Positions 2,541 through 23,501 of a stretch of DNA of 64,000 nt are shown piece after piece (the stretch's first letter is position 1; every line of letters begins with the position of its first letter). The notes under the pieces are model-generated. The model had not been told where the DNA came from. It was given only the letters and a program-made list of their open reading frames with translations, and did not search any database. Made by a program: the position numbers and the translations under genes. Origin of the DNA: Eubacteriales bacterium (lineage in GTDB: Bacteria > Bacillota > Clostridia > Lachnospirales > Lachnospiraceae). The stretch lies in contig JAUNSC010000005.1 of the NCBI GenBank assembly GCA_030539395.1, positions 41,795 to 105,794 of the forward strand, read 5' to 3'.

Positions 2541-4787
2541 TTGAAGGGAAGATATTTGTGTTATATCTGCCTTCCGCTTTTTCTATGGTTTGCTGCTGCG
2601 GGAATATTTCATAAAGATGCGGTCGAATGGGCCGCATCTTTGCCCATAACAGAGGGGCAGACAGTTTATGTGAGCGGAACAGTATACAGACAGGAATTTA
2701 AATCATCTTATCAGAGTATTTATCTGAAAAACATTTCTCTTATTTCAGAGCCGGAAACACAACCGGAATCAGATGCGGCGGATATCCTGCCGAAAATATC
2801 AAAAACAGATCAATGGAATATTTTAGTGTACTTAAAGAAAAAGGAGAATCTATGTCTCGGTGCCAATGTGCTGGTATGCGCAGAAGTCTCTTTTTTGCGT
2901 CCGGCATCAAATCCGGGAGGATTTGACCAGAAGGATTATTATGAGTCAAAGAAAATAGGAATGATTTTAAGAAGAGGGCTGATAAAGAAAAAAGACCGTT
3001 CTATATGGCCTGTCAGAAGCATGATTGATAAACTGCATCAGAAGTGTGTAGAAGAGATTTACTGTCTGGCAGATTCAGAAAATGCGGGAATCTTAAGCGC
3101 AATGCTTATGGGCGACAGAAGCGGTCTTGAAACGCGGATCAGGGATCTGTATCAGGATATGGGACTGATCCACCTGTTTTCAGTTTCGGGTCTTCATGTA
3201 ACCATGCTGGGAATGGGACTGTACCGGATTCTTAGAAAAGCGGGAATGCCCATAAAAGGGGCTGCAGGGATTTGCGCAGTTGTGATGATGGCATATGCCT
3301 TTATGACAGGCATGGCTTTTCCGGCAGTGCGGGCAGTTATTATGTTTGTGATATACCTGTTGTCAATCCTCACAGGGCGGACTTATGATCTGCCTACGGC
3401 TCTTGCAGTGGCTGCGGTGACCATTTTGTATGGACACAGCGGTGCAGTGACACAGGCAGGATTTTTAATGTCTTTTGCGGCAGTGGCAGGTGTTGTTCTG
3501 GCCGGACAGTGGAAAACAAAGAAACTCCAGAACAGCGCAGCAGGAAGCAATCTCGGTATCCAGATTATGACACTTCCCCTGACTTCTTTTTTCTATTACA
3601 AGATCCCGATATACAGTCTGGGGATAAATCTGCTGGTTATCCCGATAATGCCGGCAGTGCTGGGGTTTGGGATCGCCGGAATGGCTGCGGGAATCGTATG
3701 CCGGCCTGTGGGAAAGATAGTGATAGCGCCTGCACTATACATTTTAAAGGCTGTGAAATTTTCATGTGAGAAGGTTCGCTGGCTGCCGTTTTCTTCGGTA
3801 GTTACCGGAAAGCCCTATTTTTTAGTGCTGATATGTTATTATATCTTTCTTTTGGCGGGGTTTATTGTGATCGGACGGAATATGCAGGATAGCAGAAAAG
3901 CTGATGCAGTAAAGCTCTCATTTGCAATAATCCTGTTATCGGGTACATTGGGCTTTTCTTCTGCAAAGAAATTTGAAATGATATTTTTAGATGTTGGACA
4001 GGGAGATGGATGCTGTATAGAAAATTGCGGAAAATCTGTCTGGGTGATTGACGGCGGGAGCAGTACTGAAAGCAGTCTTGCTGCGTATTGTCTGGAGCCT
4101 TTTCTGGAGAGCCGCAAAATAGACCGGGTGGATTTTTGGATGATCTCACATTATGATATAGATCATATCAGCGGCCTTTTGGAAATTCTTGAGAATTACG
4201 AACGGAATATGACCGGCAAAAATATGAACGGGATTTCCATAGGGAGGATTTTGCTTCCGGATATTGGAGATGACGGTGAAATGCACGGATTGATATGCGA
4301 ATACGCGGAAAAACAGCGGATACCGGTATTTTATATACATAATGGTGACGTGCTGAGGGATAATGATATGACGATAAGTATACTGTCACCAGATAAAGGC
4401 AGGGAGTATTCCACAGAAAATGCGGCGTCTGTAGTGGCAGAAGTTTCCTATTTTGAATTTAGTGCACTGCTGACAGGGGATCTGGAGAAGGATGGGGAAA
4501 GTGGATTGCTTGAAAATTATTCTAAGCTTGACGTAGATGTACTGAAAGTTGCCCATCATGGATCTGAATATGCAACATCGGAGGAATTTTTAGAAAGCGT
4601 TTTGCCGGAAGCTGCAGTGATTTCCTGCGGCAGGAATAATCGTTATGGTCATCCGGGTGACGGGCTGATTCAAAGACTGGATAAATTCGGATGTTTTATT
4701 ACAAGAACGGACATGCAGGGCGCGGTTACAATACAGACAGATGGGGAGAACTGGAAGATCAGGACACAAGCAGAGCTTGCCGGTTAA
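2541..4787 (+). CDS. comEC: ComEC/Rec2 DNA-uptake channel protein
   Basis: Competence protein thought to form the membrane channel for single-stranded DNA uptake. About 748 residues from the TTG at 2541, chosen because AGGAGG at 2531-2536 is well placed; an upstream in-frame ATG at 2505 lies inside the previous gene. The order is an N-terminal DUF4131-like region, a multi-helix Competence domain from about residue 190 (LFSVSGLHVTMLGMG), then a metallo-beta-lactamase-like domain with LDVGQGDG, SHYDIDHISG, LTGDLEKDGE and VAHHGS. All domains look complete. With comM and dprA at 48-51 kb, this window holds three DNA-uptake genes. Confidence 0.93.
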   Translation: MKGRYLCYICLPLFLWFAAAGIFHKDAVEWAASLPITEGQTVYVSGTVYRQEFKSSYQSIYLKNISLISEPETQPESDAADILPKISKTDQWNILVYLKKKENLCLGANVLVCAEVSFLRPASNPGGFDQKDYYESKKIGMILRRGLIKKKDRSIWPVRSMIDKLHQKCVEEIYCLADSENAGILSAMLMGDRSGLETRIRDLYQDMGLIHLFSVSGLHVTMLGMGLYRILRKAGMPIKGAAGICAVVMMAYAFMTGMAFPAVRAVIMFVIYLLSILTGRTYDLPTALAVAAVTILYGHSGAVTQAGFLMSFAAVAGVVLAGQWKTKKLQNSAAGSNLGIQIMTLPLTSFFYYKIPIYSLGINLLVIPIMPAVLGFGIAGMAAGIVCRPVGKIVIAPALYILKAVKFSCEKVRWLPFSSVVTGKPYFLVLICYYIFLLAGFIVIGRNMQDSRKADAVKLSFAIILLSGTLGFSSAKKFEMIFLDVGQGDGCCIENCGKSVWVIDGGSSTESSLAAYCLEPFLESRKIDRVDFWMISHYDIDHISGLLEILENYERNMTGKNMNGISIGRILLPDIGDDGEMHGLICEYAEKQRIPVFYIHNGDVLRDNDMTISILSPDKGREYSTENAASVVAEVSYFEFSALLTGDLEKDGESGLLENYSKLDVDVLKVAHHGSEYATSEEFLESVLPEAAVISCGRNNRYGHPGDGLIQRLDKFGCFITRTDMQGAVTIQTDGENWKIRTQAELAG

Positions 4788-4798
4788 TCGGCAAGCTC
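4773..4798. repeat. Perfect inverted repeat holding both convergent stop codons
   Basis: Ten bases (GAGCTTGCCG) are followed by the loop GTTAAT and their exact reverse complement. The loop contains the TAA of comEC (4785-4787) and, on the other strand, the TAA of the LtaS-like gene. The arms code the last residues of both proteins. It may work as a bidirectional transcript end, but neither strand has a T-run after the stem. Confidence 0.75.
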
Positions 4799-6856
4799 AT
4801 AAAAGCTGTCAGGACGATTTTTATAATCGATGATATTATTATAAAGAATCCGTTTGTATTGAGCTAAATCTTCATAGTAGGGAGAGGTTGTATCTTCAGG
4901 ATCATAAAAGATGCCGTCAGCGCCCCAATAACCGTTTGCTGTTATGGCAGGTATTTTTTCTGAAAGCGCCAGCAGGTATTTTTGATATCCTGTCATAGGA
5001 AGATTACAGGAGTCCATCAGAATGCTTTGCAGATAATTCATACTGGTTTTTTCATATTCCTTTACAGGAAGATCATAATTAGACCAAAGCAAAAAGGGGA
5101 TCGCAAATTGTTTCATCATATCTTCTGTTGACCATTTGCTGTATTGACCGTTGGTAATATCCTTTAAAAAATCCTCAGGCAGTGCCGGCTGATGATCACC
5201 CAATAACAAAATAACAGTAGGTTCTTCCACCTGTGAGAAATAGGTGATAAGTTTTTCGAAAGCCTCATCTGTATGTTTGATCAGATTTACATATTGTTCA
5301 GCTTTTTCATCCGGATATTCCGGAAGAGTTATGGTATTTTGCAGATTATCAAATTTTCTGCCGTAGGAGCCATGATTCTGCATTGTCATAGAATAAATGA
5401 AGAATGGGTCATCCGAACCGGTTTTGGCCTTTTCATATCGATCGATGATCATATCAATCACTGCCATGTCAGAAATATACTGGCGCAGTCTCTGAACATC
5501 TTTCGGAAAATTTTTGTTGTGCAGATAAGTCTCAAATCCTAAAAATGAATATACATTCGGCCGGTTATAGTTTTTGGCAGAAAACGGATGAATGGCCGTC
5601 AGCTCCTGGTAGCCCATGTCTGCACAATTAGAGACGAGGGAAGGCATTTTATCTTTGAAATAAACCTGAAAAGCAATACAGTTCTTCGGAATGATAACGG
5701 TACTGTTTCCGGTAAGTACCTCAAATTCGGTATTTGCGGTAGAACCGCCCAGCACGGATGCATAAGTATATCCATGAATATAGTCGTTTTGAATACTATG
5801 CCAAAATGGAAGATAGTCTTCGGAGGCTTTCAGATCTGCGATCACACCGGGATCAGAGAAAGCTTCATCGATAATTACAATAATGTTGGGTATCGCGTCT
5901 GTGTCTTTGGCGCTGTCTGACGGATATTCTGCGCAAAGCGATTCAATTTCCCCAGGCGAGTAATCTTGTGGTTTGTCGATGCGGATCGCGTGAAAACTAT
6001 AAACAAAAGTCAGAATACCGCCGTAACGGTGGTAGGTGACCGAGGGTTTAAATCCATTCAGGTTTAAACCGATTTTTTTCAGATAATCAGTCATGAAAAA
6101 TGATCTTACAAAAAACAGCAGGACAACAGTGGACAAGACAGAAAAAATAAGGCGTTTTCGTCCGGCAAACAGCCGGGATGGGCCCAGGCAGTAAAAGAGA
6201 TATATGAAAACGAGGCCGTATTGGAGCATGAGCACAATCTGGAAATTTAGTTTAAAAGAATAATTGCCTGCCACATCCAGTGCAGTTCCCAAAGAAGCAA
6301 TATCCGATGCAAGGATCGGATTGCCGCGGAATACACAAATATAATGGTCCGCAATGCAAAAAATCAAACAAACTAAATGGCATAAGGCAGATGCCAGGCG
6401 CATGCTGTTTGTCAGTACGAGAAAGAACAGAAGGATCATACTGATGATTATGATATTGCAGACAAATATCAGAGGCGTAAGGGCCAGAGAATTAAAATTT
6501 TTGGGAGTCCCGTGTGTGATAATATACATTGAAGCAAAAGTAAAAAACGGAGTCAGAACCATGAGAACTGCAGTCAGTTTCCGCCCGTGGATATTTGTAA
6601 AATGAGCGATTTTGCGGCGAAAGAAAAAGAGAAAAACTGCTGCAGCCAGGATAGCAGCCTCGGCCAGAATGCGTTTTTTGGCAATGATCAGCGTTCCTTT
6701 AGAGGCATCTCCGGACATATAAAATTGTGTGTTCATACAGAAATACAGCGTAAGAGCTGCAAACAGGGATAAAAGTATTATGGAAAAGGCACAGTGAAAA
6801 TGCTTTGACGCTTTTTTATAATAGTTATAAAATATCCTCATAGTTATCGTCCTCAT
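4784..6856 (-). CDS. LtaS-type sulfatase-fold phosphoglycerol transferase
   Basis: Membrane enzyme of the alkaline phosphatase/sulfatase superfamily, 690 residues. About seven hydrophobic segments fill the first 250 residues, then an extracellular catalytic domain follows. Visible catalytic elements are a metal-binding motif (IIVIIDEAFSDPG), the likely nucleophile threonine at residue 373 (GGSTANTEFEVLTG), and GDHQPALPEDF near the end. The family moves glycerol-phosphate from phosphatidylglycerol to lipoteichoic acid or related glycans; the acceptor here cannot be told. It is monocistronic and convergent with comEC, sharing overlapping stop codons. A promoter lies at 6886-6914. Confidence 0.85.
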   Translation of the reverse strand: MRTITMRIFYNYYKKASKHFHCAFSIILLSLFAALTLYFCMNTQFYMSGDASKGTLIIAKKRILAEAAILAAAVFLFFFRRKIAHFTNIHGRKLTAVLMVLTPFFTFASMYIITHGTPKNFNSLALTPLIFVCNIIIISMILLFFLVLTNSMRLASALCHLVCLIFCIADHYICVFRGNPILASDIASLGTALDVAGNYSFKLNFQIVLMLQYGLVFIYLFYCLGPSRLFAGRKRLIFSVLSTVVLLFFVRSFFMTDYLKKIGLNLNGFKPSVTYHRYGGILTFVYSFHAIRIDKPQDYSPGEIESLCAEYPSDSAKDTDAIPNIIVIIDEAFSDPGVIADLKASEDYLPFWHSIQNDYIHGYTYASVLGGSTANTEFEVLTGNSTVIIPKNCIAFQVYFKDKMPSLVSNCADMGYQELTAIHPFSAKNYNRPNVYSFLGFETYLHNKNFPKDVQRLRQYISDMAVIDMIIDRYEKAKTGSDDPFFIYSMTMQNHGSYGRKFDNLQNTITLPEYPDEKAEQYVNLIKHTDEAFEKLITYFSQVEEPTVILLLGDHQPALPEDFLKDITNGQYSKWSTEDMMKQFAIPFLLWSNYDLPVKEYEKTSMNYLQSILMDSCNLPMTGYQKYLLALSEKIPAITANGYWGADGIFYDPEDTTSPYYEDLAQYKRILYNNIIDYKNRPDSFYELAD

Positions 6857-17374: not shown

Positions 17375-17428
17375 TACAAAAATCACATTTTTTTATTACA
17401 AATATAATGCAAAAATGTTATGAAAAAA

Positions 17429-17500: not shown

Positions 17501-19834
17501 ATGATAACAAATGTTTTGGACTACCTTGAGAACGCTGAGAAACAGTTTCCGGACAAAACAGCTTTTGGAGATGATATACAGGAGATTTCCTATAGCGGTT
17601 TGGTGAAGGCGGCAAAGGAAGCAGGAACATGGATTGCTTCGTATGGTTATAATAATCAGCCGATATTGGCAGCTGCGGATCATACGGTGGAATGCCTTAT
17701 TATTTTTCTTGGAATTGTGTACAGCGGAAATTTTTATGTTCCGGTGGATGTAAAACAGCCTTTGGCACGTATCAGAGCAATTGCAGAGGCCGCTGCCCCG
17801 GTTCTGGCAGTAGTGCCGAAGGTCTATACTGAGAAGTTTACAAAAGTTGTGGAAGAAGACAGACTGCTGATACGCGAAGACAGAATATACTCCGGAATTG
17901 ATGAAAAACGTTTGCGTCAGATACGGTCATCAAAATTGGACACGGACCCGCTGTATCTGATGTTTACTTCCGGTTCCACGGGGATTCCCAAAGGCGTACT
18001 GATCTGTCACCGCTCTGTCATCGACCTGGTGGAGCAATTTGCGGATACGTTTGGATTTAGCAGTGATGAGGTTTTTGCAAACCAGGCACCCTTTGACTTT
18101 GATGTGTCGGTAAAAGATATTTACAGCACATTAAAAAATGGAGCGACCATGTATATCGTGCCGCAGTCAATGTTTTCAATTCCCAAAAGGCTGGTGCCCT
18201 ATCTGAATAAGCATAAGGTGACAACAACTATTTGGGCGGTATCAGCAATGGAAATTCTTTCGTCCATGAAGGTACTGGAAAAAGAGACACCGCGGTTTTT
18301 GAGAAAAGTTATGTTTTCGGGCGAGGTAATGCCGGTGAAAGTATTGAATTACTGGCGGTCTTATCTTCCGGAAGCAATGTATGTTAACCTGTACGGTCCT
18401 ACGGAAATCACATGTAACTGTACTTATTATATATTGGACAGAGAATTTTCCGACAGGGAGCAGCTGCCTGTCGGACAACCTTTCAGAAATACGGAAATCA
18501 TGCTTTTAAATGAAAATGGCAGCGAGATATCTAAGGGAATGACAGGAGAAATCTGCGTGAGAGGAACCTGCCTTGCCCATGGATATTACCGGAATCCTGA
18601 GGCTTCTGCAGCGGCGTTCAAACAAAATCCCCGTCATAATAATTATCCGGACCTGGTTTATCATACGGGTGATTATGGAAGCTGGAATGAACGGGGAGAG
18701 CTGATGTTTGCAGCCAGACGGGACTGGCAGATTAAGCACATGGGACATCGAATCGAGCTTGCTGAGATTGAGAGAGCGGCATCTGCGCTGCCATATATAC
18801 GGCGCTGCTGCTGTCAGTATGATGAGCAGAGCAGGAAAATTATTTTTATTTACGAAGCAGAAGAGGAATGTGATGTTAAAATTGCAAAAGAGCTGCAGGA
18901 GTATCTTCCAAAATATATGTGTCCCAACCGGCTTATATGGATGAAGCGGATGCCGATGAATCAAAGAGGAAAGACAGACCGCGTTTATCTGAAGCAGAGA
19001 TTTACCGGTGGAGAAAATGAAATCATTTATCAGGAGGCTGTCGTGCTGGGAACAGGCACACTGGCTTTTCAATGCGCAAAGCTTCTTAAAGAGAAGAAGG
19101 TGAACTGCACTGTTCTTGATACAGGAGAGCAGGCAGGAAAAACGCTGGAACGCCAATGCCTTGCGCAGGGCATAGTGTACAGACGCAGGCCATACGATGA
19201 AATACGGATGTACCTGACACAGGTTTGTGCGCCGACCCTGGTAGTAAGTGCTGTTAATCCCTGGATTTTGCCGGCAGATGTGCTGGAAAATGCTTATCTT
19301 TTTGCAGTGAATTGTCACCAGGCGCTGCTTCCTGCTCATCCGGGCAGAAATGCGGAGATGTGGGCAATTTATGAAGGAGATGCGAAGACAGGAATTACAT
19401 GGCATATGATATCAGACCGGGTGGATGGCGGAGATATACTGATTCAAAAAGAGATGCCGCTTAATAAGACCAGTACGGCTATCGGAGTCTTCAGGAAACA
19501 GTGTTATCTGGCGGCTCAGGCGTTTGAAGAAATCCTGGAAAGTATGTTAAGAGGCAAGCCAACGCTTTTGCCGCAGGAAGGCCGGCGGCAAAAGATGCGT
19601 TACTCATGGGAAAGACCGGAGGATGGAAAACTGGATTTGGACAGGCCATTTTCAGAAATCAGTGCTTTTCTGAGGGCATACGATTACGGAGGGCTGTCGG
19701 TAGTCGGACAGCCGTATTTTGAACGTGACGGCAGGAGATATATTTTTGAAGGTTATCACATAACAGACAACGATTTTGAATTGAAAAATATAAAAGAACA
19801 GAAGAAAGAGGAGGCATATTCATGGAACAATTGA
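17501..19834 (+). CDS. Amino-acid adenylation domain fused to a formyltransferase domain
   Basis: About 777 residues from ATG 17501 (GGGAGGAAG upstream; the longer frame from 17420 lacks a site). Residues 1-500 are a DltA-like adenylation domain: MFTSGSTGIPKG (154-165), NQAPFDFDVSVKDIY, NLYGPTEI, YHTGDYG, and the catalytic lysine in NQRGKTDR. Residues about 505-740 look like a formyltransferase: Rossmann-like start (VVLGTGTLAFQCAKLL) and the N-x-H...D set at N604, H606 (VNCHQALLP) and D642 (RVDGGDIL), as in Fmt and ArnA. Likely role: activate an amino acid, load it on the carrier encoded next, and formylate its amine using formyl-tetrahydrofolate. The gene overlaps the carrier gene by 13 bases. 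Substrate unknown. Confidence 0.85.
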   Translation: MITNVLDYLENAEKQFPDKTAFGDDIQEISYSGLVKAAKEAGTWIASYGYNNQPILAAADHTVECLIIFLGIVYSGNFYVPVDVKQPLARIRAIAEAAAPVLAVVPKVYTEKFTKVVEEDRLLIREDRIYSGIDEKRLRQIRSSKLDTDPLYLMFTSGSTGIPKGVLICHRSVIDLVEQFADTFGFSSDEVFANQAPFDFDVSVKDIYSTLKNGATMYIVPQSMFSIPKRLVPYLNKHKVTTTIWAVSAMEILSSMKVLEKETPRFLRKVMFSGEVMPVKVLNYWRSYLPEAMYVNLYGPTEITCNCTYYILDREFSDREQLPVGQPFRNTEIMLLNENGSEISKGMTGEICVRGTCLAHGYYRNPEASAAAFKQNPRHNNYPDLVYHTGDYGSWNERGELMFAARRDWQIKHMGHRIELAEIERAASALPYIRRCCCQYDEQSRKIIFIYEAEEECDVKIAKELQEYLPKYMCPNRLIWMKRMPMNQRGKTDRVYLKQRFTGGENEIIYQEAVVLGTGTLAFQCAKLLKEKKVNCTVLDTGEQAGKTLERQCLAQGIVYRRRPYDEIRMYLTQVCAPTLVVSAVNPWILPADVLENAYLFAVNCHQALLPAHPGRNAEMWAIYEGDAKTGITWHMISDRVDGGDILIQKEMPLNKTSTAIGVFRKQCYLAAQAFEEILESMLRGKPTLLPQEGRRQKMRYSWERPEDGKLDLDRPFSEISAFLRAYDYGGLSVVGQPYFERDGRRYIFEGYHITDNDFELKNIKEQKKEEAYSWNN

Positions 19835-20058
19835 TGAAAATTTTAAGAGAAATAAGGCCGGATGTGGATTTTGAGAAAGAAAAGGCATTGCTGGATGATG
19901 CTGTTTTGGATTCTTTTGATATTGTATCGCTGATAGGTGAGATCAACAGCAGTTTTCAGGTGGATATTCCCTTTGAGGAACTGGAACCGGAGAATTTTAA
20001 TTCAGCGGAAGATATCTATAAATTGATTCAGAGATTAAAAACAGGGGGAGTAAAATGA
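19822..20058 (+). CDS. Acyl/peptidyl carrier protein (DltC-like)
   Basis: A 78-residue acidic helical protein. The serine for 4'-phosphopantetheine is S31 in LDSFDIVSLI, close to the DSFD/DSLG carrier motif. It starts with ATG after GAGGAGG, inside the end of the adenylation-formyltransferase gene, and its stop overlaps the MBOAT start (ATGA). It should carry the activated aminoacyl group as a thioester. A Sfp-type transferase at 48039 is a candidate to attach its cofactor. Confidence 0.9.
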   Translation: MEQLMKILREIRPDVDFEKEKALLDDAVLDSFDIVSLIGEINSSFQVDIPFEELEPENFNSAEDIYKLIQRLKTGGVK

Positions 20059-21500
20059 CCGTCAATTCACTGTTTTTTTTAGTGTTTCTGGCAGGTATAT
20101 ATTTGTTTTATTATGTTGTTTTCCCTGTAAAATATCGCTGGCTGGTCCTTCTGGCCGCCAGCGTTATATTCTATATACAGGCATGTGCAGCATCTCCCGT
20201 ATATGTATTTTTATCGGCAATGTGTATCTGGATTGCCGGAATGCTGATGGAAACACAGGAAAAGATAAAAAAGAAAATAATTTTGGCAGCCGCGGTGGTA
20301 TTCAATCTGGGATTGCTCCTGGTTTTGAAATATAGCGGTTTTTTTACTGCGCCTCTGGGGATATCTTATTATACATTGATTGCTGTGGGCTATGTGGCAG
20401 ATGTCTATAAAGGTAAGGTCCAGGCGCAGAAAAATCCGGCGCGTCTGCTGCTGTTTTTGATGTATTTCCCTCAGATGACCCAGGGACCTGTGAACCGTTA
20501 TCAGCCCATGGCCGCACAACTTTATGAAGGGCATCGAATGGGATACCACAATCTGTCTTATGGCTGCCAGAGAATTCTGTGGGGATTTTTTAAGAAGCTT
20601 GTGATTGCAGATAATCTTCATCCGGCCATGCAGAGTCTCTTTGATGGATATGAAACATTAGGCGGGGTATCCTGTGCACTGGCATGTATATATATGACGG
20701 TATGGATGTATGCAGATTTTTCCGGTTATATGGATATCGTGGCGGGAACTTCTGAATTGTTTGGAATACACATAGCGGAAAATTTTAAGCGGCCTTTTTT
20801 TTCAAAATCGCTGGCAGAATATTGGAGGCGCTGGCATATTACACTGTGTGCATGGTTTCGGGATTACATGTTTTATCCGCTGGCGATTTCATCCGCAGCA
20901 GTTCGGTTTGGAAAATTTGGAAGGAAGCATTTCGGAGTAAGGATAGGAAAGCTGTTTCCGTCACTTTTTGCGCTGTTGTTTGTCTGGACATGCACAGGAT
21001 TATGGCATGAACCGAATTGGCGTTATGTACTGTGGGGAGCTGCCAACGGGTTTTTTATCATGGGAGCCATGGTCATGCAGCCATATTTTGATGCCTGGAA
21101 AAAAGCTTTCCGTATACCCGTGAAAAGCCGGGGATGGCAGATATTCTGCATGGTGAGGACCTTCCTGCTGGTATGTCTTTTAAAAGTGTTTCCGGGACCG
21201 AAGGATACTGCAGCTATGGCAGGAGTGATCAGGAAAATATTTACAGATATACGTCTGCCTGGGGGCTGGGACGAAGTGCTGCCGGGCATAGGAAAAGGAG
21301 ACGCCATGTGTCTTGGATTTGCTGTTTTAATCGTATTTGCTGTGGATGTGATCCAGGAAAAACAGCCAGTCAGAGACTTGCTGGCACAGAAGTACACGCT
21401 GGTGAGATGGATATGCTATCTGGGAGTGCTTGCGATGATTCTGCTGTTTGGGCAGTTTAATGTTTCTATGACGGGAGGATTTGCCTATGCGCAGTTTTAA
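20055..21500 (+). CDS. MBOAT O-acyltransferase (DltB/AlgI-like)
   Basis: Polytopic membrane protein of 481 residues with about ten hydrophobic segments. MBOAT hallmarks are the SLAEYWRRWHITLCAWFRDY segment with H261 and the likely catalytic H318 in TGLWHEPNWRYVLWG. Family members such as DltB and AlgI move acyl groups from a cytoplasmic donor across the membrane to a surface polymer. With a carrier protein upstream and an SGNH protein downstream, a DltB-like role is the best reading. It overlaps both neighbours (4 and 14 bases), showing a tightly coupled operon. Confidence 0.92.
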   Translation: MTVNSLFFLVFLAGIYLFYYVVFPVKYRWLVLLAASVIFYIQACAASPVYVFLSAMCIWIAGMLMETQEKIKKKIILAAAVVFNLGLLLVLKYSGFFTAPLGISYYTLIAVGYVADVYKGKVQAQKNPARLLLFLMYFPQMTQGPVNRYQPMAAQLYEGHRMGYHNLSYGCQRILWGFFKKLVIADNLHPAMQSLFDGYETLGGVSCALACIYMTVWMYADFSGYMDIVAGTSELFGIHIAENFKRPFFSKSLAEYWRRWHITLCAWFRDYMFYPLAISSAAVRFGKFGRKHFGVRIGKLFPSLFALLFVWTCTGLWHEPNWRYVLWGAANGFFIMGAMVMQPYFDAWKKAFRIPVKSRGWQIFCMVRTFLLVCLLKVFPGPKDTAAMAGVIRKIFTDIRLPGGWDEVLPGIGKGDAMCLGFAVLIVFAVDVIQEKQPVRDLLAQKYTLVRWICYLGVLAMILLFGQFNVSMTGGFAYAQF

Positions 21501-22509
21501 AAAAATACTTTTTCGGGCTGTGGCGCTGGTTTTGTTTACAGTTCTTTTAGAGTGGGGGATTCGCTTCTGCTATCAGGAATGGAAAGCATTTACGGTCGTA
21601 TCACGCCAGGAGAGGGAAGAACTTCAGGGAACTCTGGATACATTGTATTGCGGCAATTCTCTGACATACAGGGGATTTTGTCCTGCGCTGCTGGACGAAA
21701 AACTTGGCACAAACAGTTTTAATCTGGGAACCAGTCAGCAGACTTTATCCGGCGTTTACTATCTTTTAAGAGAAACTGCAGAACAAAATCCAATAAAAAA
21801 GGTATATTTGGGGCTGTCAATTTCCATGTTGAAGGAGGAAATGCCGGATGAAGCATATGTTTCAGCGGCAGAAAATTTTTGTTCACCTGTATGGAAAATG
21901 CGGTATCTTATGGCGGTTGGCAGAGAACCGGTTTTTGTGTCCTCGCTGTTGTTTTCGACCAGGGTGGAAACATATATGGCATTTTCGAAAGTAAAAACAA
22001 ATATCAGGAGCAAGCTCTCCGGAAGGAAAAGCAGCAGCCGGTATGGAAAACGCGGATGGCGCACCAGCAGCAAAAAATATGCCGGCAAAGGCCAGGAGAG
22101 AAATGCGGACGGGAAATATTGGGATAAGGAACTGGGCATATCACAGCTGCAGCAGGAATCTTTAACTTACCTGAAAAAGATAACAGAATTTTGTAATGAG
22201 AATGAAATTCAGCTGACATGGGTATTTATGCCGCTCAGCCAGCCGTTTGTGGATGGGGCGGGAGATATGGATGATCTGAATGAAACTTTGGGCGGTCTGG
22301 CAGAAGAATTTGGTGCAGAATATTATAATTTCATTCTCTATAAGGAGAGAAAAACAGTTTTTACAAATGACAAGTTTAAGGACAGTACACATTTGAACAC
22401 AGAGGGAAGTAAGGTTTTCAGTACACTTCTGTCGGAAATTGTGTCCAGCAAAAATCCAGGGGACTATTTTTATGGTTCAATGGAAGAGTATAAGGAGGAA
22501 CAAATTTGA
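21487..22509 (+). CDS. Membrane-anchored SGNH protein (DltD/AlgX-like partner)
   Basis: About 340 residues. One N-terminal membrane segment (VALVLFTVLLEWGI) is followed by an extracytoplasmic SGNH-hydrolase fold: YCGNSLTYRG with the nucleophile S58, and the D-x-x-H pair at D299/H302 in KDSTHLNTEG. DltD and AlgJ/X proteins use this fold to pass the acyl group from the MBOAT protein to the polymer. The ATG at 21487 is preferred over the TTG at 21481 because GGGAGGA sits 7 bases before it. A basic, glycine/serine-rich segment near residues 175-205 is likely a flexible insert. Confidence 0.85.
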   Translation: MRSFKKILFRAVALVLFTVLLEWGIRFCYQEWKAFTVVSRQEREELQGTLDTLYCGNSLTYRGFCPALLDEKLGTNSFNLGTSQQTLSGVYYLLRETAEQNPIKKVYLGLSISMLKEEMPDEAYVSAAENFCSPVWKMRYLMAVGREPVFVSSLLFSTRVETYMAFSKVKTNIRSKLSGRKSSSRYGKRGWRTSSKKYAGKGQERNADGKYWDKELGISQLQQESLTYLKKITEFCNENEIQLTWVFMPLSQPFVDGAGDMDDLNETLGGLAEEFGAEYYNFILYKERKTVFTNDKFKDSTHLNTEGSKVFSTLLSEIVSSKNPGDYFYGSMEEYKEEQI

Positions 22510-23501
22510 AATATTGTGTAAAATGCGGATTGCCGGAGAACTATCAGGGAATGCGGTTAAATGAAGCGCAGGTATGCAATTACTGCAGCTTTTTTGAAAA
22601 ACACAAAGATATATTGACAGATTATGAGGCCCTGGAGACTCAGTTTCAAAGAGAGGTCATGCAGGCAAAGGAGAGAGCCGGGGCGCAGGGATCCAAATAT
22701 GATTGTATTGTGGGATTAAGCGGAGGAAAAGACGGCGCTTATATCACATATCAGTTAAAACATAAATACGGGATGCGGGTGTTGACGTACACGCTGGATA
22801 ATGGATTTTCTACAGAATTTGGAAAGAATAATATTGCAGTTTTACTGGATAAGCTGGATGTGGACCATATACGCATAACAGTCAATGAAACACAGCTTAG
22901 AAATTATTACTCGGCCAGTATGAAACTAATGCACAATTTTTGCAGTGTCTGTTTCCACCTGTGTCATTACTACAGTCATCTTCTTGCTTCGCAATATGGG
23001 ATACCGCTGATTGTAAATGGAAGAACGCGTTCGCAGATCCTGCAGGCCGCAGATGCCAGGAAGGGCATAGAGCCATTTGAAATTTCAGGGAATTTATTGG
23101 AGTTTGAGTACCAGATGTTTGGAAAGCTGGCTGAAAAGTCGGCTTCCAGGGGAAGGATGGACTATCTGCAGAATGTGCAGGTGACATCACTTTCGTATTT
23201 TATGTACCATGATATCGGTGAGGAAGAAAAAATGGACTTCCTGGAGAAAAATGTTGGCTGGAAAAAACCAGAAACATCGGTTCCCCATCCGGACTGCTGG
23301 GCACATCCAATGGCAGAGAAGTGCAGCATAGAGAAACACGGATATCCTGTGCGCACCGGAGAACTCTCAGAGCTGGTAAGAGAAGGGAAAATAACAAAGG
23401 AGGATGCATGCAAAGAGCGTGAAGAAGATCTGCTGCATTACAGTAATGTAGACATGGAACTGGAAAAGCGGTTTTATGAAAGAATCCGCAGACGTGGATA
23501 G
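22506..23501 (+). CDS. PP-loop ATPase resembling N-acetyl-sugar amidotransferase (WbpG-like)
   Basis: A 331-residue ATP-pyrophosphatase. N-terminal cysteines C4/C7 and C24/C27 form a probable zinc site; the PP-loop SGGKDG is at residues 72-77 in DCIVGLSGGKDGAYITY. This layout matches WbpG-like enzymes that adenylate and amidate (or amidinate) sugar acids, with more distant kinship to TtcA/TtuA thiolases. WbpG needs a glutamine amidotransferase partner; none is encoded nearby. The TTG start overlaps the previous stop (AAGGAGGA upstream). Being last in the dlt-like operon suggests it modifies the acyl group or its acceptor. Confidence 0.75.
   Translation: MKYCVKCGLPENYQGMRLNEAQVCNYCSFFEKHKDILTDYEALETQFQREVMQAKERAGAQGSKYDCIVGLSGGKDGAYITYQLKHKYGMRVLTYTLDNGFSTEFGKNNIAVLLDKLDVDHIRITVNETQLRNYYSASMKLMHNFCSVCFHLCHYYSHLLASQYGIPLIVNGRTRSQILQAADARKGIEPFEISGNLLEFEYQMFGKLAEKSASRGRMDYLQNVQVTSLSYFMYHDIGEEEKMDFLEKNVGWKKPETSVPHPDCWAHPMAEKCSIEKHGYPVRTGELSELVREGKITKEDACKEREEDLLHYSNVDMELEKRFYERIRRRG

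Follow-up and report, generated by a model that had tools for sequence, protein, structure and literature searches.

A dlt-type operon predicted to N-formylate, and possibly thioamidate, a carrier-bound amino acid in a Lachnospiraceae bacterium

A stretch of 64,000 nucleotides from the genome of a gut-type member of the Lachnospiraceae (Eubacteriales bacterium, assembly GCA_030539395.1, contig JAUNSC010000005.1, positions 41,795 to 105,794; contig 35 of a 77-contig, 3.37 Mb assembly, 94% complete), hereafter called the window, carries an operon encoding an adenylation-formyltransferase fusion protein (A-F, with domains A and F), a carrier protein, an MBOAT acyltransferase, an SGNH-type protein and a PP-loop enzyme (PP). 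With a probability of about 0.5, it is read here as a dlt-type surface-acylation operon in which an amino acid, while bound to the carrier, receives an N-formyl group and is then probably converted to the thioamide before its transfer. In the proposed pathway, the A domain would adenylate an alpha-amino acid, probably other than D-alanine, and load it on the carrier, as suggested by its family and pocket residues, following which the fused F domain, in which the catalytic residues are seen, would move a formyl group from formyl-tetrahydrofolate to the amine. PP would then use ATP and a three-cysteine [4Fe-4S] site to swap the formamide oxygen for sulfur on the carrier, in the manner of the thioamide synthetase CtaC, and the MBOAT and SGNH proteins, by analogy with DltB and DltD, would carry the N-(thio)formyl-aminoacyl group across the membrane and attach it to a surface-polymer hydroxyl. 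The broader proposal, that the envelope polymer bears N-thioformyl-aminoacyl esters (N-thioacetyl in sister species) because a thioamide built on the carrier by a CtaC relative is handed to a DltB-like MBOAT, within a broader set of dlt-like operons that have the adenylation pocket in common and differ in the tailoring enzyme, falls a little short of an even chance.

Relation of the operon to dlt

The five open reading frames (ORFs) all lie on the + strand (window 17501-23501) and overlap by 4-20 bases at 4/4 junctions; together with the Pfam matches, they bear out the overlapping genes named in an initial annotation of this stretch. As in dltABCD, an adenylation enzyme, a stand-alone carrier, an MBOAT and an SGNH protein are assembled in one operon, whereas the pocket code is a different one and the F domain and PP are additional. 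The A-F protein scores 289.9 bits with the DltA model TIGR01734 (cut-off 559.85), the MBOAT 147.8 bits with the DltB model TIGR04091 (cut-off 375) and the carrier 24.7 bits with the DltC model TIGR01688 (cut-off 52.35), and no gene in the genome reaches the TIGR01734 cut-off. Judged from its sequence, the operon is predicted to work like dlt, yet it is no dlt operon by curated cut-offs.

The carrier falls just below the Pfam cut-off (20.6 against 20.8 bits) and matches the DltC-like model PRK05087 with 37.4 bits; its serine S31 was read straight from the translation. The MBOAT is matched by Pfam with 49.6 bits (cut-off 27), and H261 and H318, histidines of the type that is catalytic in MBOAT enzymes, are invariant in 11/11 aligned sequences. 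For the SGNH protein only a sub-threshold GDSL match was obtained (18.4 bits, Pfam cut-off 32.9), while across 11 sequences S60 and H304 never vary and D301 hardly does. S31, H318 and the SGNH residues had all been pointed out in the initial annotation and were found as described; its designation of the SGNH protein as DltD-like holds for gene position and SGNH residues, but no DltD family model of Pfam or NCBIfam matched.

Adenylation pocket and formyltransferase domain

The A domain is recognized by the Pfam AMP-binding model (E 1.7e-63) and the F domain by Formyl_trans_N (PF00551) with 63.8 bits, over the gathering score (cut-off 26.1). The formyltransferase set N604/H606/D642 proposed initially (N97/H99/D135 of alignment A1) is invariant in 11/11 aligned sequences. 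Since A and F are fused and the order is A-F-carrier-MBOAT, the natural inference is that the carrier-loaded amino acid would be N-formylated. In the linear gramicidin synthetase LgrA, the formyltransferase likewise acts with an adenylation domain and a carrier; there, however, the formylation-adenylation-carrier module forms one chain, whereas in the window the A-F protein and carrier are separate and the product would go to a membrane acyltransferase. Among solved structures, F comes closest to a sugar-nucleotide N-formyltransferase (5vys, E 1.2e-30), with the LgrA formylation domain behind it (1.7e-17), which weighs against an aminoacyl substrate; a sugar substrate for F is compatible with the sequence, but an aminoacyl one is favoured by the fusion to A. 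The path drawn in the initial annotation is therefore supported as regards N-formylation of a carrier-loaded amino acid and was incomplete in leaving PP without a role.

The adenylation pocket code is DVKAMSLCNK in the window against DLMTLCTVCK in the DltA-like reference L129 (549 bits, just below the DltA cut-off of 559.85), 6/9 variable positions compared being different, with pocket positions put in GrsA numbering by motif. The code DVKA[MLF]SLCNK occurs in 46/61 adenylation rows (duplicates counted), and other codes are found at the F loci L060, L061, L089, L090, L094, L097, L099 and L100. With an Asp235-type residue kept, the A domain probably loads an alpha-amino acid, D-alanine being improbable. 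The code allowed no residue to be assigned; Lys239 hints, as a lead only, at a polar or acidic side chain. Ordinary D-alanylation plus accessory genes, with which the distant DltA, DltC and DltB similarity would agree, is thus very unlikely in view of the six pocket positions that differ from L129, and a formylated D-Ala would forfeit the charge that D-alanylation serves to add.

PP as a candidate thioamide synthetase

CtaC, the carrier-dependent thioamide synthetase of closthioamide, is described as requiring D77, S78, C154, C157, C284 and a [4Fe-4S] cluster, the Ser78 alanine mutant being inactive (PMC6772006). In PP, cysteines C146-x2-C149 and C264 are present in 24/24 orthologue rows (20 distinct places) and align with those of L163, which has D, C, C and C at 77, 154, 157 and 284, the numbering reported for CtaC, and is adjoined by two carriers and a LysA-like gene. 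D76 of PP is present at the CtaC Asp77 position, and the PP CxxC is in register with the CxxC of TtuA in a phmmer alignment, the pair that in TtuA binds the cluster, in line with PMC6772006. Because C146/C149/C264 match the CtaC [4Fe-4S] pattern, PP would be a CtaC-type thioamide synthetase acting on a carrier-bound amide, an assignment to which roughly even odds are given; in that case the formyl amide may be an intermediate. Both proteins have the PP-loop fold, the Asp77 residue, a CxxC plus one cysteine, and stand-alone carriers alongside, but they are only about 24-26% identical, Gly replaces Ser78 in the window, and an MBOAT follows here where the closthioamide route ends in peptide release.

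PP has no Pfam match, and its sole and closest curated family is TIGR03573, the N-acetyl sugar amidotransferases (NASATs), at 160.5 bits, below the cut-off of 203.2. An amidine pathway, in which a NASAT-like PP would convert the formyl or acetyl amide to formamidine or acetamidine and keep the positive charge, was consequently considered. The NASATs WbuX, WbpG and LpNASAT (PMC10607449) have a PP-loop, an amide substrate and the tetracysteine motif, which PP shares (C4/C7/C24/C27 in 23/24 orthologue rows, the remaining row, L092, ending at the edge of its contig stretch); these enzymes differ in their sugar substrates and in lacking the three extra cysteines. F and GNAT enzymes, moreover, each produce an amide, the substrate type of NASATs. 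Against this reading, in a homologue sample of 391 genomes of the class plus L068, the C146/C149/C264 set occurs in 0/13 NASATs above the TIGR03573 cut-off and in 10/14 homologues below it, where PP also falls. Wider neighbourhoods were fetched for all 14 below-cut-off homologues and two above, and 9/10 of the below-cut-off three-cysteine homologues have an adenylation, ligase or carrier match within 12-17 kb, some of these matches being weak. A second, divergent hisF adjoins the NASAT gene in 3/10 NASAT genomes (G588, G762, G183) and PP in 0/8 genomes, which is suggestive only, hisF being present in just those three, as a point against an amidine role. The amidine pathway, initially the leading reading of PP from TIGR03573 and PMC10607449, was lowered by the extra cysteines, the CtaC paper and the hisF comparison, and stays as an unlikely rival.

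Several observations weigh against the thioamide synthetase assignment. The window PP has Gly77 at the CtaC Ser78 site, as do 8/24 rows, with Ser in 16/24; the PP-loop accordingly reads SGGKDG instead of the SGGKDS of 16/24 rows, L054 and L055 among them, and departs from the SGGXDS pattern of NASATs as well. A BLAST comparison of the window PP puts the true NASAT L068 (90.5 bits) ahead of CtaC (75.5 bits), although three more proteins with the extra cysteines surpass both at 114-130 bits. Against the PDB, the PP profile finds the NASAT structure 8wex first (E 1.8e-17, against 1.8e-4 for TtuA), which also speaks for the amidine reading. In the tree, the PP group forms one clade (100/99) and the NASATs split in two groups; PP is joined to one three-cysteine protein at just 90/59, with long branches, and the three-cysteine proteins are not one clade. 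The analysis pointed to no particular sulfur donor, acceptor or substrate. Degeneration of PP owing to Gly77 was also considered and is weakened by dN/dS values of 0.04-0.05 in three pairs, with 0.05 in the two pairs from the SGGKDG clade of the window; in the comparison of the window PP with that of L043, synonymous sites were saturated and gave no dN/dS information.

Distribution of the gene set and order of the modifications

F-domain searches over 397 genomes of the family, with subsequent inspection of the neighbourhoods, and a genome-contig scan with the F alignment, which gave 47 loci, led to 39 non-redundant MBOAT loci: 15 with F and PP, 2 with GNAT and PP, 13 with F alone, 4 with a PLP (pyridoxal phosphate) decarboxylase-like gene and 5 with none of these, counts that are no prevalences as the sample was drawn largely by F search. 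PP is accompanied by an N-acylating enzyme in 17/17 MBOAT loci carrying it, while PP is missing from 13/28 of the non-redundant F-bearing MBOAT loci (in the L058 genome it is encoded at a different place). Formylation preceding thioamidation fits the data, since PP was never seen without an acylating enzyme and F often without PP.

The same 13/28 loci make thioamidation dispensable for the pathway and count against it in the main proposal. They favour, together with Gly77 in the window PP, a pathway that stops at N-formyl-aminoacyl esters on the polymer, PP having another role or being inactive in this clade. Such an outcome is judged improbable, although less so than the amidine pathway, as PP is part of the same overlapping operon, retains all seven metal-type cysteines and D76 and, with a dN/dS of 0.05 in the Gly77 clade, is strongly constrained by purifying selection.

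The gene set with PP is present in the cultured Anaerosacchariphilus polymeriproducens MCWD5 (locus L080); F loci with no PP on the stretch are found in Robinsoniella peoriensis and Eubacterium sp. 14-2, and one without PP in a Chloroflexota-type metagenome-assembled genome titled Ornatilinea. Recurrence of the set in many genera excludes chance or an annotation artefact. A and F are fused in only 2/28 non-redundant MBOAT loci with F (the window and L071), and also in L073, which is cut by a contig end; separate A and F genes occur in the order PP-A-F-carrier-MBOAT-SGNH in L054 and L055. Hence the genome search proposed with the initial annotation did recover the set in other genera, where F usually has a gene of its own; the description as a dlt-like layout plus a formyltransferase stands, but the fusion around which the operon was said to be rebuilt is a lineage variant. 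Neither a lost folate site, F keeping its catalytic set, nor a previously characterised operon was encountered: a full-text search of the open-licence literature subset found no paper describing such an operon.

In a sample independent of F (adenylation-domain matches in 60 relatives, 26 strong places, 25 inspected with G023 contig 330 left out), the position between or beside A and carrier is occupied by F in 1 place, a clear GNAT in 2, a weak GNAT-like match in 2 (L183, 27.8 bits; L192, 12.4 bits), a LysA-type PLP decarboxylase in 8 and nothing recognised in 11, 1 place being cut. Where F or a clear GNAT was seen, PP is there too (3/3), and it is absent from the other 22 places. Among the 397 family genomes, the 6 with PP at at least 50% identity are all among the 9 classed with a dlt-type F (hypergeometric 1.6e-11, uncorrected for ancestry).

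LysA-type PLP decarboxylase genes lie between or beside A and carrier in the dlt-like operons L048, L049, L050, L118, L184, L190, L191, L193 and L197, where decarboxylation of the loaded amino acid is possible. Because these operons mostly share the DVKA-type pocket code with the F operons (8/9 of those inspected, i.e. the eight places plus L118, with L190 as exception), the operon family looks as if it joined a common loading chassis to a variable tailoring step, filled by a formyltransferase, a GNAT, a PLP decarboxylase or nothing. A similar ligase and PLP decarboxylase form the exosortase-A-associated pair TIGR03098/TIGR03099, although the matches in these dlt-like operons are below cut-offs.

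Sister species with GNAT in place of F

In two species of the window's genus (L043, L044), the carrier, MBOAT, SGNH protein and PP are 48-78% identical to those of the window, gpr lies downstream as in the window, and a GNAT acetyltransferase gene (PF00583, 39.2 bits, cut-off 20.7) occupies the place expected for F, so that this variant would yield an N-(thio)acetyl amino acid. The last ~100 residues of their adenylation proteins match the start of the window F domain (L043, 33% over 96 residues, E 1e-11; L044, 47% over 30, E 2e-6), the catalytic part being missing, and this tail has a dN/dS of 0.23 against 0.09 for the remainder (one pair, 89 codons). We read it as a decayed fused F that was replaced by the acetyltransferase. 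Tandem SGNH genes are also present in these acetyltransferase-bearing operons (L043:10320-12407; L044:11033-13096).

Acceptor and significance

LtaS-like sulfatase-fold genes are found in the genome, one of them inside the window, and a teichoic-type acceptor is therefore possible. The window copy encodes a membrane protein of 690 aa (4784-6856, - strand; PF00884, 101 bits) at ~11 kb from the operon and is a possible source of the acceptor polymer. These genes, the dlt-like gene order and the DltB-like MBOAT, albeit below the TIGR04091 cut-off, make it unlikely that the MBOAT and SGNH proteins acylate a lipid or set free a thioamide metabolite, i.e. that the product is a secreted or membrane small molecule and not a surface polymer. 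In favour of such a product, CtaC relatives mostly serve small-molecule pathways (PMC6772006), and F is accompanied by carriers and adenylation genes at places lacking an MBOAT too. Examples are L046, L060 and L094, where F-domain relatives adjoin such genes with no MBOAT on the stretch, a putative further thiotemplated use of F.

D-alanylation, the dlt chemistry, contributes positive charge and gives protection from cationic peptides. Judging by this operon family, the same chassis may serve anaerobic Firmicutes, through exchangeable tailoring enzymes, to equip their surface with other acyl groups; the one predicted here would lack a free amine and, should it be thioamidated, an ordinary amide as well. 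Thioamides are metal-binding and protease-resistant, and a surface-polymer thioamide, if true, would be chemically unusual and a new kind of bacterial surface chemistry, in which CtaC-type enzymes gain a role outside antibiotics.

Gene coordinates and surroundings

The coordinates are collected in Table 1. The A-F gene start was placed at ATG 17501, preceded by GGAGGAAGA, a strong ribosome-binding sequence, which gives 777 aa; a second in-frame ATG lies farther upstream, at 17420. The promoter scan was uninformative, with 15 matches against 14.5 expected from shuffled sequence. The operon is flanked by topB/rpsT-type genes on one side and by gpr, spoIIP and lepA on the other.

Table 1. Features of the operon (positions in the window) and importer/ligase regions at related loci
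Feature	Position	Strand	Remarks
Adenylation-formyltransferase (A-F) fusion protein, 777 aa	17501..19834	+	Pfam/NCBIfam, alignment of F domain
A domain of A-F	about 17501-19006	+	
F domain of A-F	about 19043-19790	+	
A-F N604	19310-19312	+	
A-F H606	19316-19318	+	
A-F D642	19424-19426	+	
Carrier protein, 78 aa	19822..20058	+	phosphopantetheine site S31 at 19912-19914
MBOAT acyltransferase, DltB-like, 481 aa	20055..21500	+	Pfam MBOAT; H261, H318
SGNH-type membrane-anchored protein, DltD position	21481..22509	+	S60, D301, H304
PP-loop (AANH) enzyme (PP), 331 aa	22506..23501	+	proposed CtaC-type thioamide synthetase
PP C146	22941-22943	+	
PP C149	22950-22952	+	
PP C264	23295-23297	+	
PP Zn-type cysteines			C4, C7, C24, C27
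PP-loop of PP			SGGKDG (D76, G77)
Importer/ligase region	L083:12398-14981		
Importer/ligase region	L087:12397-14960		
Importer/ligase region	L056:931-3512		

Within or beside three F and PP operons (L083, L087, L056), a sulfonate/taurine-type ABC importer (SsuA family, 97.9 bits, below the cut-off of 163.5) and a second AMP ligase were observed; the importer could bring in substrate or sulfur. At L053, L069, L070 and L085, a divergent MBOAT-SGNH pair is flanked by F and PP, and in the L053 genome the DVKA-type adenylation gene, accompanied by those for carrier, MBOAT and SGNH, sits on another contig (L116).

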